NCBI RefSeq assembly: GCF_900177805.1
Contig: NZ_FXAX01000001.1
Span: 372,001 to 436,000 of the forward strand
DNA length: 64,000 bases
Reading direction: 5' to 3'
DNA from: Fibrobacter sp. UWB13
GTDB lineage: Bacteria > Fibrobacterota > Fibrobacteria > Fibrobacterales > Fibrobacteraceae
The notes below the pieces were generated by a model, which was given only the letters and a program-made list of their open reading frames with translations, was not told the DNA's origin and searched no databases. A program made the position numbers and the translations under genes. This document shows positions 58,677 to 64,000 of this stretch, piece by piece. Numbering within the stretch: position 1 is the stretch's first letter; each line of letters starts with the position of its first letter.

Positions 58677-58721
58677 GGTCATTCTTTGTAGTCGTTGTTT
58701 TTGTGTTTTTGGAAGACCCTG

Positions 58722-59894
58722 ATGATCAGTATTACTAAGCTTTTGATGGATACCCCGAATTTCGGGGATTCTCTTCGTTATGAACCGCGTGCCCACGAAT
58801 CTAAGAACGGTGTGGGCCCGGGCCGTGGTCCGGTGGTGGTGTGGAACTGCACCAAGACTTGCAACCTGAAGTGCGTGCATTGCTATGCCCGTTCAGAGGC
58901 TATCAAGTACCAGAACGAACTTTCACACGAAGAGGGAATCAAGCTTATTGATCAGCTTGCAGATTTCCATGTGCCGGTGATTTTGTTCAGCGGTGGCGAA
59001 CCGCTTTTGCGCCCGGACTTTTTTGAACTCGCGAACTATGCGGCAAGTAAGGGCATCCGTCCGACGATTTCGACGAACGGCACTTGCATCACGCCGGATG
59101 TGGCTCAGAAGCTCAAGGCGATGGGCGTGGGCTACGTGGGCATAAGCTTGGATGGTTGCGAAGAAACTCACGACAAGTTCCGTGGCAAGCAGGGCGCGTA
59201 CCAGATGGCTTTGCGCGGGATCCGCAATTGTGTCGCGACGGGTCAGAAGGTTGGACTCCGCTTCACGATTACAAAGTACAACTATCAAGACCTGAACGCT
59301 ATTTTCGATTTGCTCGAAGCGGAAAACATTGATAGAGTTTGTTTCTATCACCTTGTCTATAGCGGTCGCGGAAGTGCGATGGTCGATAACGACTTGAATC
59401 ACGAAGAGAGCCGCAAGGTGATGGACTTGATTATTGATCGCACTTTGGACTTTAAGAAGCGCGGTGTGAACAAGGAAATTTTGACGGTCGACAACCACGC
59501 CGATGCCGTTTATCTGTACCAGCGCATGAAGCGCGAAGACCCGGAACGCGCGAAGATTGTTCTGGATTTGATTCAGCGCAATGGCGGAAATCGCAGCGGT
59601 ATGGCATTTGGCAATATCGATAGCATTGGCAATGTGCATCCGGACCAGTTTACGCAATATATTACGCTCGGAAACGTTCGCGAACGCAACTTTGGCGACA
59701 TTTGGACAGACTTGTCAAATCCGATTATGGCTGGCCTCAAGAACCGCAAACCGCTTTTGAAGGGGCGTTGTCCGAAGTGTGCTTACTTGAATTTGTGCAA
59801 CGGCAATTTCCGTACGCGTGCCGAAGCTGTTACTGGCGACTTCTGGGCTGAAGATCCGGCTTGCTATTTGACCGATGAAGAAATTGGGCTGTAA
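58722..59894 (+). CDS. ahbC: Radical SAM heme-synthesis protein, AhbC/NirJ family
   Basis: About 390 aa from the ATG at 58722. The N-terminus ISITKLLMDTPNFGDSLRY is characteristic of NirJ1/AhbC. The radical-SAM cysteines are in CNLKCVHC (C-x3-C-x2-C, near residue 50), with GGEPLLRP following. C-terminal cysteines (GRCPKCAYLNLCNG, and one in PACY) can hold a second iron-sulfur cluster. AhbC removes the two acetate chains of didecarboxysiroheme, giving iron-coproporphyrin III. It overlaps the fused decarboxylase gene by 20 bases. NirJ of heme d1 synthesis is the alternative; nearby hemA and hemC with no nir genes favour heme. Confidence 0.85.
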   Translation: MISITKLLMDTPNFGDSLRYEPRAHESKNGVGPGRGPVVVWNCTKTCNLKCVHCYARSEAIKYQNELSHEEGIKLIDQLADFHVPVILFSGGEPLLRPDFFELANYAASKGIRPTISTNGTCITPDVAQKLKAMGVGYVGISLDGCEETHDKFRGKQGAYQMALRGIRNCVATGQKVGLRFTITKYNYQDLNAIFDLLEAENIDRVCFYHLVYSGRGSAMVDNDLNHEESRKVMDLIIDRTLDFKKRGVNKEILTVDNHADAVYLYQRMKREDPERAKIVLDLIQRNGGNRSGMAFGNIDSIGNVHPDQFTQYITLGNVRERNFGDIWTDLSNPIMAGLKNRKPLLKGRCPKCAYLNLCNGNFRTRAEAVTGDFWAEDPACYLTDEEIGL

Positions 59895-60966
59895 CGCCTC
59901 TCGCGATGTGCCGCAAATGCTGAGTCAAAAACTTCTCGCGATTATTCAAGACGGCTTTCCGTTGGTGGAACGCCCGTATTTGCGCTTAGCAGAAATGTTG
60001 AACGTTTCTGAACACGAAGTTTTTGATGATATTGAGAAAATGCGCGTGTCCGGCGTAATTCGACGTATTGGTGGCGTGTACGATTCCAAAAAACTGGGCT
60101 TTATTTCGAGACTTTGTGCAGGAAAAGTACTGACTTCGGAAAATGATTTTGCGGCGGAACCGCATGCGCAGACTCCGATGGAAAAGTTCGCTGCAGTCGT
60201 GATGAGCGAACCTGCGATTACGCACAATTACATCCGTAGTCACGAATACAATGTTTGGTTTACGGTCATTGCCGAAAATGAATCTGCAATCCAGGTGGTT
60301 GTGGACCGCGTGTGTTCGCAAACATATTTGCACGATGTCCATGTCCTTACCGCCACCAAGAAGTATAAAATCAATACGGTGATGTCATTAGACGAGAGAC
60401 GTGGTTCGGCAGGCTCACCAACCTTGACGAAAGACGAAATAGGCGAGAGTGCCCCGGCTTTGCGTCATTCTGACAACCGAAGGTTGGAAGAATCCAGTAA
60501 TTTCTTGGGAAAACTCACTGACTCCGACAAGTTCCGCATCCACATTGCTTGTGATGATATCCCGCATACGCTCACTCCGTTTAAGGACTGGGGTGTTTCT
60601 TGCGATGAACTTCGCGAAGATTTTGCTACTAAACGTATGCGCCGCTTTGGGGCGATCCTTCGCCATCAAGATGCGGGTTTCCCCTGCAATGCGATGGTAT
60701 GCTTCTCTCGTCATTCTGAGGACCGAAGGAACGAAGAATCTAGTAAAGTCTTGGCTCTTGCGAAAAAACACTACATTTCGCATTGTTACGAGCGTCCGTC
60801 TTTTGAAAATTTCCCGTACAACTTGTATGCAATGATGCATGCTCAGACGCCTGAAGAATTAGACGCCTACATCAAGGAATCCGTGGCGTTGCTTGATAAC
60901 CCGGAATACGTCGTTCTCCATTCCCTCAAGGAACTCAAGAAAACGAGCTTCAGATTTTTTGCGTAG
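59875..60966 (+). CDS. Fused siroheme decarboxylase (AhbA-AhbB type) with in-frame repeat inserts
   Basis: 363 aa. Two Lrp/AsnC-like halves. Half 1 (about 15-165): HTH LLAIIQDGFPLVERPYLRLAEMLNVSEHEVFDDI, MRVSGVIRRIGGV, then the domain ending SEPAITHNYIRSHEYNVWFT. Half 2 (about 210-363): DIPHTLTPF, KRMRRFGAILRHQDAGFPCNAMV, HCYERPSFENFPYNLYAMMHAQ. This matches AhbA/AhbB (NirD/L/G/H), which remove two carboxyl groups from siroheme; normally two separate subunits. Two repeat copies add peptides: at 60463-60499 in the linker, and at 60709-60742 within half 2. A further repeat-like segment (GGTTCGGCAGGCTCACCAACC) lies at about 60403. The start may also be the ATG at 59917. Confidence 0.82.
   Translation: MKKLGCNASRDVPQMLSQKLLAIIQDGFPLVERPYLRLAEMLNVSEHEVFDDIEKMRVSGVIRRIGGVYDSKKLGFISRLCAGKVLTSENDFAAEPHAQTPMEKFAAVVMSEPAITHNYIRSHEYNVWFTVIAENESAIQVVVDRVCSQTYLHDVHVLTATKKYKINTVMSLDERRGSAGSPTLTKDEIGESAPALRHSDNRRLEESSNFLGKLTDSDKFRIHIACDDIPHTLTPFKDWGVSCDELREDFATKRMRRFGAILRHQDAGFPCNAMVCFSRHSEDRRNEESSKVLALAKKHYISHCYERPSFENFPYNLYAMMHAQTPEELDAYIKESVALLDNPEYVVLHSLKELKKTSFRFFA
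60403..60499 (+). repeat. In-frame repeat inserts in the decarboxylase linker
   Basis: First a GGTT...AACC palindrome (60403-60424 region), then the hairpin repeat CGTCATTCTGACAACCGAAGG at 60463 with inner stem CAACC/GGTTG and outer stem ATTCT/AGAAT. It is read as RHSDNRRLEESS. Confidence 0.65.
60709..60742 (+). repeat. In-frame hairpin repeat within decarboxylase half 2
   Basis: CGTCATTCTGAGGACCGAAGG ... GAAGAATCT, read as RHSEDRRNEESS. It splits the conserved block between NAMVCF and KKHYISHCYERP. Confidence 0.7.
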
Positions 60967-60971
60967 TATCG

Positions 60972-61616
60972 CTAGAATCGATAGCCTATACCGATGTTGG
61001 TAATGCCCTTTGCGCCCCAAAGTAAAAACGGCACTTGGAATCGAACGGAAACGGGGTAGCCAATCTCAAAACCTAAAAGGGAAATGTGTCCCATGGGAAT
61101 GACTCTATCGGACATAATTGAAATTCCCGCATCAAGTTCAAAAAATGGGTTGACGAATCCCCCTAAATTACCATTGATTTTTAGTTTTGCCATAACCGTG
61201 GTTATAGGAGGATCATATATAAACAAATTTAGGATAATACCTGTTTCGATGTAGTCAAATGCGTATCCGTAATCGATGGATACAGCTCCATAAGAACAAG
61301 AAAAAAGTTTTTCACATTTATCATCAAATAAGTGGCTTAATCCGGCACCAAAATCAAATAGTGTTAAAAAGTCATACTCAAAGCCAATACTATGATGTTT
61401 GATTTGACTCTTTTTGTTTTGATTGGATCCGTTTGCCTTCGCCATGCTTGTATCGACTATGATTTTTTGCTTTTGGTCTTTTTTCCAAATGGTGTTGGTG
61501 TCGATAATTCCTTCGCCAGCTTGTGCGTTTTCTACATACGTTCCCATGTCCCAAGCGTTTGCATGGACCGCAAAAAATAGAGAAATAACAGCGCAGAGTA
61601 AAAATCTTTTTGTCAT
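60972..61616 (-). CDS. Exported beta-barrel-like protein, unknown
   Basis: About 214 aa from the ATG at 61616, which follows AAGGGC. Signal peptide MTKRFLLCAVISLFFAVHANA. The rest is rich in Gly and aromatic residues in alternating strands (HSIGFEYDFLTLFDFGAGLSHLF, GAVSIDYGYAFDYIETGIILNLF) and ends in GIGYRF, a terminal Phe as in outer-membrane barrels. It lies antisense inside the heme cluster, between the decarboxylase and hemA genes, and has no evident link to them. Confidence 0.75.
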   Translation of the reverse strand: MTKRFLLCAVISLFFAVHANAWDMGTYVENAQAGEGIIDTNTIWKKDQKQKIIVDTSMAKANGSNQNKKSQIKHHSIGFEYDFLTLFDFGAGLSHLFDDKCEKLFSCSYGAVSIDYGYAFDYIETGIILNLFIYDPPITTVMAKLKINGNLGGFVNPFFELDAGISIMSDRVIPMGHISLLGFEIGYPVSVRFQVPFLLWGAKGITNIGIGYRF

Positions 61617-61738
61617 GCCCTTGAATAACTTAGCCAATTAATTCGGTTTCTATAATTTATATATAATAATTTTTTGAAAGAAAAAGTATTTTTCGATTAA
61701 GAAAATGCTTGTGTCATGGCGAAATACCCTAGATTGCA

Positions 61739-61771: not shown

Positions 61772-63076
61772 ATGCGCAAAATTTACATGGCAGGCATGAG
61801 CCACAAGGTGGCTGAAATCGCAATTCGCGAAAAGTTTTATATCCCGATGGATGTAAAGACTGAGGCGTTAACACATTCTCCATTTGATGAACTTTTGATT
61901 CTGGCAACGTGCAATCGCACGGAAGTCTATGTGGCGAGCGACCGTGAAATCACTGATGGTGAACTCGTTCGTTATGTGTGTGGACTTGCCCGTCAAGACT
62001 ACGATGATTTTGCGAAGTTCTTTTATTTTAAGTCGGGTGACGATGTTGCGCACCATGTGATGAATGTGTGTGCCGGGCTTGATTCTGTCGCTATGGGCGA
62101 GGATCAAATTTTGCACCAAATTGGCCGTGCGTACGAAACGGCGCACCAGCTGAATGCGACGGGCAATACGCTGAACAAGCTTTTCCAGAGCGCGATCCAT
62201 ACGACAAAGCGTATCAAGACTGAGACGAACTTGAGCAAGCTCAGTTGCAATATTCCGTTCTTGGCGATGAAGCAAGTGCAGAAGACTTTTGACGATCTTG
62301 AAAATCGTACCGTGTACATCGTGGGGCTTGGTGAGATGGGCTCGCTGATGCTCAAGTATGTACAAGAGAATACGACCAAGATTTTTGCAAGTAGCAAGAC
62401 TTTTGCAAATGCCGAAAAATTTGCAGATGTGCTTACGCCTGTGAAATTCGAAGACCGCTACGAAGTCCTTGGCAAGTGCGATGTCGTGATTCTCTGCAGC
62501 GCTTGCCAGGAACCGATTGTCACGAAGAATGAGTTTGAAAAGACAATTGCATTGTGTCATCCTGAGCGAAGCACGGTGTGTGAAGTCGAAGGATCCTGTG
62601 AAGGTTCGTCTGCTGTGACAGACCCTTCAAAGCGCTTGATTATCGATCTTGGTAGCCCGCGCAATGCAGAAGCTTCTATTGGTGAACTTCCGGGCGTTGA
62701 ATACGTTTGCGTTGATGACCTTGAAAAGATTGTTTCTGAAAATCGTCGGTTGCGCATGATTGAACTTGATGCAGCGCAGAAAATTTTGAAAGAAGGCCTT
62801 GATGAATTCTTGCATTGGAACCGTATGGATGAGGTCTCCAAGCAAATTCATTTGCATGCCGAAAAAATGCTTACGACGGCAAATGAAGAATCTGAAAAAT
62901 TATTGCGCTCCATGCCGGAACTTTCGGAAGATGACCGCCATCGCATCCAGATGATGTACGAACGATTTGCGAAGAAAATGGCGAATGACTTTTTGTATAA
63001 AGTCAAGGCTGAAAATTCGCCTGAAGATGTGCAGGTGTTCCTCAAGTGCTTAGATTCAAAATCTCCTAGAAATTAG
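61772..63076 (+). CDS. hemA: Glutamyl-tRNA reductase with in-frame repeat insert
   Basis: First enzyme of the C5 route to tetrapyrroles; reduces glutamyl-tRNA to glutamate semialdehyde. 434 aa. Catalytic Cys47 lies in ATCNRTEVY, followed by the specificity motif MGEDQILHQI and the NADPH site VGLGEMG near residue 190. Between FEKTIA and KRLIIDLGSPRN (residues ~262-287) sits an extra stretch with RSTVCEVEGS that comes from a hairpin repeat; the flanks match the family closely. It is probably still active since the insert is in a surface loop beside the NADPH domain; this is inferred. hemC follows after 11 bases. Confidence 0.93.
   Translation: MRKIYMAGMSHKVAEIAIREKFYIPMDVKTEALTHSPFDELLILATCNRTEVYVASDREITDGELVRYVCGLARQDYDDFAKFFYFKSGDDVAHHVMNVCAGLDSVAMGEDQILHQIGRAYETAHQLNATGNTLNKLFQSAIHTTKRIKTETNLSKLSCNIPFLAMKQVQKTFDDLENRTVYIVGLGEMGSLMLKYVQENTTKIFASSKTFANAEKFADVLTPVKFEDRYEVLGKCDVVILCSACQEPIVTKNEFEKTIALCHPERSTVCEVEGSCEGSSAVTDPSKRLIIDLGSPRNAEASIGELPGVEYVCVDDLEKIVSENRRLRMIELDAAQKILKEGLDEFLHWNRMDEVSKQIHLHAEKMLTTANEESEKLLRSMPELSEDDRHRIQMMYERFAKKMANDFLYKVKAENSPEDVQVFLKCLDSKSPRN
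62556..62632 (+). repeat. In-frame hairpin repeat inside hemA
   Basis: GTCATCCTGAGCGAAGCAC ... GAAGTCGAAGGATCC (62556-62596), followed by a GAAGG...CCTTC inverted pair to about 62632. Read as CHPERSTVCEVEGS plus about 12 residues. It differs from the hemC copy at two of 38 bases. Confidence 0.75.
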
Positions 63077-63087
63077 AGGGGCTTGCT

Positions 63088-64000
63088 GTGAGTGACTTGA
63101 AATTACGTATCGCAACGCGCAAGAGCGCTTTGGCTTTGGCCCAGACGACGATGGCGGCGGATGCTATTGTCGCTGCTAATTCTGTTATTGGGAATGCCGC
63201 CGATTCTAATAATGCCCGCGATTCTCTGACTTATGAACTGGTCTCCATGACAACCGAAGGCGATCGCCGTTTGGATAAGTCTCTGGCGAGCTTTGGTGGC
63301 AAGGGCGTGTTCATCAAGGAACTGGAAATTGCACTCCTTGAAGGTCGTGCTGATATTGCGATTCACAGCTTGAAGGATATGCCAGCCGAAGTGCTGCCGC
63401 AGTTCAAGCTTGCTGCAGTCTTGAAACGTGCAGACCCGCGAGATGCGTTCCTTTCGCGTGGTGGAGCTGCTGGAATCCGCTTTATGGATTTGCCTGCAGG
63501 TGCTCGCGTGGGAACGGGAAGTATTCGCCGTGTGGTACAGCTGAAAGCGCTCCGCCCGGATTTGGAATATGTGCCGATTCGCGGAAACATCCAGACTCGC
63601 ATTGGCAAACTTGCGGAACTTGATGGTGTTGTGCTTGCGGCTGCGGGGCTTAAGCGTATGGGGCTTGCAGACCAGGTAACGGAATATTTTAGCACCGAAC
63701 AGATGCTCCCCGCCAGTGGTCAGGGAATCCTTGCGATTGAAACTCTTGCCGATTCTGACACTCGTCATCCTGAGCGAAGCACTGTGTGCGAAGTCGAAGG
63801 ATCGAGGGCGATTTGTAACGACCTTGCGCAGATTCTCGCTCGCGTGAACGATGTTGCGACATTCTGCATCGCTTCTGCTGAAATGGCGTATTTAAAGGCG
63901 CTCAATGCTGGTTGCCAATTCCCGGTGGCAAGTTTCGCGGAATTTGTTGACGGTGGGTCTAATAGAATTGCGCAGACTTTGAAAATTCGCGGCATTTACT
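63088..64000 (+). CDS. hemC: Porphobilinogen deaminase (partial) with in-frame repeat insert
   Basis: Runs off the window; 304 codons visible from a GTG start with GAGGGG upstream. Joins four porphobilinogens to hydroxymethylbilane. Family motifs: LRIATRKSALALAQ, LDKSLASFGGKGVFIKELE, DIAIHSLKDMPAE, GTGSIRRVVQLKALRPDL, RGNIQTRIGKL, ASGQGILAIE, and the cofactor Cys in NAGCQFPVASF. A hairpin repeat adds RHPERSTVCEVEGS (63764-63803) right after GQGILAIETLADSD, before the helix that leads to the Cys. The frame stays open. It forms a unit with hemA (11-base gap). Confidence 0.94.
   Translation, partial: MSDLKLRIATRKSALALAQTTMAADAIVAANSVIGNAADSNNARDSLTYELVSMTTEGDRRLDKSLASFGGKGVFIKELEIALLEGRADIAIHSLKDMPAEVLPQFKLAAVLKRADPRDAFLSRGGAAGIRFMDLPAGARVGTGSIRRVVQLKALRPDLEYVPIRGNIQTRIGKLAELDGVVLAAAGLKRMGLADQVTEYFSTEQMLPASGQGILAIETLADSDTRHPERSTVCEVEGSRAICNDLAQILARVNDVATFCIASAEMAYLKALNAGCQFPVASFAEFVDGGSNRIAQTLKIRGIY
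63764..63803 (+). repeat. In-frame hairpin repeat inside hemC
   Basis: GTCATCCTGAGCGAAGCAC ... GAAGTCGAAGGATC, nearly the same as the hemA copy, same orientation, same reading frame. Confidence 0.75.

Follow-up and report, generated by a model that had tools for sequence, protein, structure and literature searches.

The window that we analysed is a stretch of 64,000 nucleotides of the Fibrobacter sp. UWB13 genome, in which a single gene, ahbAB, predicted to encode both types of siroheme decarboxylase subunits in one chain, lies among heme biosynthesis genes and carries short palindromic repeats. The features needed to follow the analysis are listed below, each with the evidence on which its assignment is based.

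58695..59894, forward strand: nirJ1, AhbC-like radical SAM gene, overlapping ahbAB by 20 nt (TIGR04054, 688.8 bits, cut-off 650).
59875..60966, forward strand: ahbAB, predicted single-chain siroheme decarboxylase of 363 aa (ORF list, NCBIfam, model).
59926..60384, forward strand: half A, AhbA-like, residues 18-170, with HTH1 and a ferredoxin-like domain (NF040708, model).
60223..60237, forward strand: HNYIR, residues 117-121, the HxYxR motif of half A (45-sequence alignment).
60385..60522, forward strand: linker, residues 171-216, largely repeat-derived here (pLDDT, comparison of lengths in the genus).
60390..60437, forward strand: first repeat piece of the linker, of the GTGGTTCGGCAGGCTCACCAACC type (92% identical to a second place in the same genome).
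60463..60494, forward strand: hairpin copy 1, in the linker, with a CGTC tag, feet ATTCT/AGAAT and core CAACCGAAGGTTG (repeat search).
60523..60960, forward strand: half B, AhbB-like, residues 217-362, with a short HTH2 and a ferredoxin-like domain (NF040707, model).
60571..60651, forward strand: shortened HTH2, residues 233-259 (alignment to 4czd_B).
60709..60740, forward strand: hairpin copy 2, in the beta1-alpha1 loop of half B, residues 279-289 (repeat search).
60781..60795, forward strand: HCYER, residues 303-307, the HxYxR motif of half B (45-sequence alignment).
61772..63076, forward strand: hemA, with an in-frame hairpin insert at 62557-62594 (TIGR01035, 269.3 bits).
63088..64000, forward strand: hemC, running past the window end, with an in-frame hairpin insert at 63765-63802 (TIGR00212, 267.9 bits).

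The original prediction had described AhbA and AhbB halves joined in one protein, and this was borne out, since 59875-60966 is a single uninterrupted frame spanning both halves and its product matched both curated NCBIfam models: AhbA (NF040708) over residues 18-169 (144.3 bits for the whole protein, cut-off 140) and AhbB (NF040707) over residues 227-360 (162.2 bits for the whole protein, cut-off 125). Because each half alone falls below its cut-off (129.4 bits for half A and 99.5 bits for half B), the equivalog call depends on stretches added together. Pfam detected AsnC_trans_reg2 in two stretches and a NirDL-like HTH once, the HTH being confined to half A, and the closest PDB entry by sequence was NirDL (4ch7, 1.8e-38). 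The start of the gene is uncertain, with M1 overlapping the end of nirJ1 and M15 (ATG at 59917) as an alternative. A stop or frameshift between the halves, or a separate ahbA/ahbB pair, had been named as findings that would speak against a fusion; the frame is intact and a profile search detected no second AhbA or AhbB locus in the UWB13 genome, so that the prediction stands on both counts.

Within 20 kb, we found hemA, hemC, cobA-hemD, a sirC-type gene, hemB, hemL, nirJ1 and nirJ2 (523.7 bits, cut-off 500). The NirJ1 and NirJ2 proteins exceed the cut-offs of the NirJ models and fall below those of AhbC and AhbD, which are their second-ranked models; with NirJ1 and NirJ2 in the AhbC and AhbD roles, the gene set of the siroheme-dependent heme b pathway is complete from hemA to the AhbD-type enzyme. 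The straightforward reading of these sequences is that they would encode such a pathway, presumably an active one. A 221-aa ORF with a signal-like start (60972-61637, reverse strand) lies between ahbAB and hemA; in the relatives L286, L288 and L289, the hemA frame starts 4 nt after ahbAB, and this gene is therefore an extra one in the lineage of the window.

An AlphaFold2 model of the ahbAB protein (alignment of 45 sequences) reached a mean pLDDT of 87.4 and a pTM of 0.84, with low confidence mainly at residues 1-10, in the linker (46-57 in 10-residue blocks from 171 to 210) and in the insert loop of half B, where block 281-290, holding the second insert, has a pLDDT of 67, the lowest of this half's domain. 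Half A is modelled as helices and strands over residues 11-166. The top Foldseek matches were two structures of the fused NirDL protein, 4ch7 (E 7e-23) and 4czc (6.5e-22), with a TMt of 0.64, followed by the AhbA and AhbB chains of 4czd; TM-scores against NirDL are moderate (0.55-0.64, rmsd 7). Model and matches together point to an AsnC-like fold with two ferredoxin-like domains. H117, N118, Y119 and R121 in half A and H303, C304, Y305 and R307 in half B are invariant in the 45 sequences, and core dN/dS ratios of 0.10-0.19 against 8 relatives reveal constraint on both halves, indicating that ahbAB is under purifying selection.

NirDL of Hydrogenobacter thermophilus (4ch7, 4czc) likewise holds both halves in one chain with an AsnC-like fold and HxYxR motifs. 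Its own pathway leads to heme d1, unlike the heme b reading given here, and its second HTH is full-length whereas that of ahbAB is short. The available part of the NirDL literature reports no repeat inserts, in contrast to ahbAB. AhbA and AhbB of Desulfovibrio desulfuricans (4czd, 4un1) share the subunit folds and motifs, but they are two chains and the AhbB HTH is 8 residues longer than here; the accessible part of their description (PMC4145669) has the HxYxR motif facing a cavity and activity requiring Arg102 of AhbB, a mutated residue whose counterpart by motif is HCYER of half B.

We propose that halves A and B, each with an AsnC-like HTH and a ferredoxin-like domain, would pair within one chain, probably mirroring the pairing of AhbA and AhbB between chains. 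Siroheme would then bind in the cavity between the two halves, the H117/Y119/R121 and H303/Y305/R307 motifs may remove the carboxyls of the C12 and C18 acetates, and the product would be passed to NirJ1 (AhbC-like) and NirJ2 (AhbD-like), presumably in that order, to yield heme b. We infer the decarboxylation, the pairing and the order of steps from sequences and model. An AsnC/Lrp-type transcription regulator, or a NirDL devoted to heme d1 and not to heme b, could also account for the AsnC-like fold and for neighbours that match models named for heme d1. Either identity is very improbable, considering that the HxYxR motifs are invariant, that AsnC models score 25.5 bits at most, that HTH2 is truncated, that AhbC and AhbD rank second for the radical SAM neighbours, and that a search for cytochrome cd1 nitrite reductase (PF02239) found no match in the UWB13 genome. 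Sequence and model instead indicate that ahbAB is a real, intact and constrained single-chain siroheme decarboxylase, a kind of protein that was already known.

The HTH of half 2 had also been predicted to be shortened, and from LTPF to RRFG it does count 27 residues, against 35 in D. desulfuricans AhbB (4czd_B), i.e., 8 fewer. The short HTH2 of 52 of the 62 genus members, and likewise of L100, a relative at the order level, marks the shortening as a lineage trait. The repeat was rejected as the source of this short form, which occurs without repeats; the HTH2 of the window carries none, and that of L035 and L041 is made longer by a strict hairpin at this place. The shortening would fit an enzyme for which a DNA-binding helix has become dispensable, suggesting that HTH2 may have lost a DNA-binding role.

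The statement that the two subunits are normally separate was only partly right: separate pairs exist, but fusion is widespread and was already published. An ortholog search matched 65 of the 101 genomes of the family, and both halves lie in one frame at 63 of the 64 fetched loci, namely 62 of the genus and L069 (L070, at a contig end, and G091, with weak matches to other proteins only, are excluded from the ortholog counts). All 62 complete genus orthologues, repeat-free linkers included, have a single-frame ahbAB, and the order-level relative G141 is also fused. A 731-aa frame of G141 was considered as a further fusion and rejected, being an open GC-rich frame that overlaps nirJ1. The survey of layouts in Fibrobacterota proposed with the prediction revealed both kinds in the phylum, fused elsewhere too (e.g., G102, G104, G105, G106, G115, G123 and G138) and separate in G118-G122, G131, G136 and G137, where the stop-to-stop frames of a pair overlap by ~7-50 nt. 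A scan of 80 named loci, of which L119-L163 overlap the other genomes searched and are not independent, gave fusion in 45/45 Fibrobacterales loci and at 25 further loci, in Desulfosporosinus, Nitrosocosmicus, Nitrosopumilus, Chloroflexi, Planctomycetota, Poribacteria, Sumerlaeota, Helicobacteraceae and Sedimentisphaerales. The remaining 10 loci, all deltaproteobacterial (L188-L195, L197 and L198), have AhbA alone, AhbB being absent up to 2.5 kb away, and do not figure in the tree; nor does L110 (G139, broken half B).

A tree was built from 48 rows, 40 of them fused and 8 separate. It requires a minimum of 3 changes of layout and places Fibrobacter, together with its order-level relatives, as the sister group of fused Desulfosporosinus (92/84), apart from the separate-gene Fibrobacterota. 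These sequences indicate that the ahbA-ahbB fusion is older than the genus Fibrobacter. As far as the accessible parts of the publications go, ahbAB is fused in most heme-making archaea (PMC3004389, PMC3942049, PMC11237513, PMC4145669), where the same fusion stands in an alternative heme cluster (Storbeck 2010, PMC3004389; PMC11237513; PMC3942049), and H. thermophilus has the same gene fusion (PMC4835899). The archaeal Nitrosocosmicus and Nitrosopumilus examples have linkers without repeats, unlike the ahbAB of the window. In open-access literature searches on Fibrobacter, and more widely on palindromes, we recognised no listed paper as treating the ahbAB fusion or these repeats in Fibrobacter.

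Two side observations concern descent. L069 (G011), from another genus of the same family, encodes a fused AhbAB with 33% identity, on a very long branch of unsure placement, and its fusion is possibly of separate origin. Besides, Fibrobacter AhbAB groups with that of Desulfosporosinus and not with other Fibrobacterota (L100, L007, L164-L173; 92/84), and NirJ1 and NirJ2 lie above their model cut-offs; judging from these sequences, the late heme genes may have passed from one phylum to another.

The two repeat copies noticed at the outset are real: the 46-nt copies at 60463-60508 and 60709-60754 are 83% identical, and 5 strict hairpins were found in the 64 kb against 0.05 expected by chance. 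The first insert sits in the linker, as had been said, from residue 197 on. The second, thought to interrupt a conserved block, actually lies in a variable part of half B, the beta1-alpha1 loop, whose length ranges from 9 to 49 residues in the genus; this copy is common to L046, L014 and L017. The piece at 60390-60437 is unrelated to the hairpin repeat and is included in the 46-residue linker of the window; it is common to L011 and L014 and absent in L046, L008 and L009. This same piece, of the GTTCGGCAGGCTCACC type, recurs at G000:C1:448447-448494, just after nirJ2 and at the start of the next gene.

Linkers range from 21 to 64 residues in the genus. The idea that the repeat had lengthened the linker is right for the lineage of the window (46 residues, where repeat-free relatives such as L066 and L068 have 21-23), while the idea that it had formed the linker, and with it a route from two genes to one, fails on the repeat-free linkers of fused relatives. 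Under a relaxed rule, a hairpin copy was detected in 25 of the 62 genus linkers (four of these matches, in L008, L009, L040 and L043, rest on three mismatches) and in none of the 35 other fused linkers, from G141 and 34 others, for a shuffle expectation of 0.18 per 97; the repeat therefore entered after the fusion. Had ahbA and ahbB been joined by a repeat that inserted between the neighbouring genes and became their linker, the position of the repeat exactly at the linker would be accounted for, and a small change could indeed fuse separate Fibrobacterota pairs, since their frames overlap by ~7-50 nt. Such an origin is nevertheless extremely improbable, as linkers are repeat-free in the fused genus members L066, L058, L068, L048-L055 and L063, in L100 and in each of the 35 fused proteins from outside the genus, and as Fibrobacter falls with fused Desulfosporosinus and not with the separate-gene Fibrobacterota (92/84). 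We favour, with a probability of about 0.88, an old fused siroheme decarboxylase in which REP-like hairpins would be later in-frame passengers in loops.

Under a strict rule, 34 hairpins were found in 27 of the 62 ORFs, all in forward orientation: the linker holds 19 of them (9, 6 and 4 for the three foot classes) and the half-B loop 10, HTH2 and the leader have 2 each, and the HTH1 turn has 1. To account for the 18 strict linker carriers, the genus tree requires a minimum of 15 changes, and for the 10 loop carriers it requires 6, counts that are inflated because degenerate copies are scored as absent (e.g., L046), that do not distinguish gain from loss, and in which gene conversion could mimic repeated gain. 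From these sequences, the same ahbAB loops apparently received hairpins in several independent events, each time in forward orientation and in frame. Such insertions would have hit loops that tolerate changes in length, and the copies of the linker and of the half-B loop would be passengers that lengthen flexible loops; this passenger view does not explain the excess of hairpins in ahbAB over flanking DNA. As a separate observation, the ahbAB of L062 (G084) has a tandem VSHDVPSRVTEKNCVIL-type repeat before its start and inside the HTH1 turn, in a frame of 492 aa.

The inserts might instead be functional, in that a helical EESS stretch, present both in the linker and in the half-B loop, would tune how far apart the two halves sit or how accessible the active site is. 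The recurrence of the same two sites (19 and 10 of the 34 strict hairpins) would agree with this, as would the model, which places a short helix (203-207) in the linker repeat and starts another (285-296) inside the loop repeat. We judge a function of this kind unlikely: insert length, reading frame and repeat class vary freely among close relatives, many members have no insert, the pLDDT of the linker is 46-57, and hairpins occur in unrelated genes too. Passengers remain our preferred reading of these inserts.

Across the UWB13 genome, there are 22 exact TCATTCTGA..GAAGAATC units and 68 TCATCCTGA..GAAGGATC units, against 0 with reversed controls, and a script using the same patterns located 91 copies, on which the following counts of cores and genes are based. 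Hairpin units are 24-42 nt long and have feet of three classes, ATTCT/AGAAT, ATCCT/AGGAT and ATTGC/GCAAT; in the window, such hairpins span, for instance, 60465-60493, 60711-60739, 62557-62594 and 63765-63802. The 91 copies, from the first two classes, hold 78 distinct cores, with self-complementary ends (mean 2.27 bp versus 0.55, SD 0.09, in shuffled cores), and 73 of them have a lower fold energy than core-shuffled versions.

In 478 kb of this genome, 4 of 18 strict hairpins lie in ORFs, all in ahbAB, hemA and hemC. The view that heme genes are the sole targets was rejected once all 91 copies had been located, other genes carrying copies as well. Twenty of the 91 lie inside ORFs that measure 100 aa or more and leave 20 codons on either side of the copy; on visual inspection, 15 were accepted as lying in plausible genes, four of them being ahbAB (twice), hemA and hemC, and five (C1:804487, C1:822816, C2:633861, C3:9564 and C5:154141) were rejected as antisense or spurious. 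We take the other accepted carriers to be ligA, tilS, hsdS, mnmE and genes for a glycosyltransferase (two copies), a helicase (two copies), a lipoprotein and an RNA methyltransferase (two copies). Judged by eye, heme genes are over-represented among hairpin-bearing genes, not unique. At 14 heme loci (L286-L298 and L099), ahbAB holds 9 hairpins in 14.8 kb, hemC 5 in 13.2 kb, cobA-hemD 5 in 15.9 kb, sirBC 2 in 7.0 kb, hemA 1 in 17.1 kb, nirJ1 none in 15.8 kb, and the rest 12 in 174.9 kb. The hemA and hemC hairpins of the window, 1.2 kb apart, have a long, nearly identical core, and the hemC hairpin is identical in the relative G034 (L289), whose hemA has none, suggesting local copying from hemC to hemA.

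Both ahbAB copies read CGTCATTCT, with an unpaired CGTC tag and an AT-starting stem, as do the small palindromes known as CGTC-tagged REPs in the accessible part of PMC3733652, the main text of which makes no mention of Fibrobacter as far as it was available. The REP combination of an 8-9 bp stem, a 4-5 nt loop and a CCA tail was not found in the ahbAB copies, whose stem combines feet of 5 bp with a GA/GA step and a private core, with a CCA tail in copy 1 only. Rickettsia palindromic elements (PMC2229807, available in part) are also present in frame in ORFs, but they measure 105-146 bp against 24-42 nt here, and only the in-frame habit is shared. The nearest published relatives of the hairpin are known kinds of elements.

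A more tentative idea, which we hold to be possible but rather doubtful, is that the Fibrobacter hairpin actively spreads in coding DNA, with fixed feet and self-renewed cores, and that heme genes are its safe harbours, namely the fused siroheme decarboxylase, hemC, cobA-hemD and sirBC. If true, this would add a phylum new to such elements, with repeated forward and in-frame entry into the same loops, so that genes of known loop structure would record mobility.

The question from which this analysis started is answered by an ahbA/ahbB fusion that is old and widespread and by repeats that came later; the recurring in-frame hairpins, and not the fusion, are the interesting remainder. The 62 orthologues of a structurally understood enzyme form a natural series with palindromic repeats of three foot classes in a few loops, permitting a direct test of where coding repeats are tolerated and whether activity suffers, the same tolerance question as was asked for the Rickettsia elements, while their private cores bear on how such hairpins multiply.
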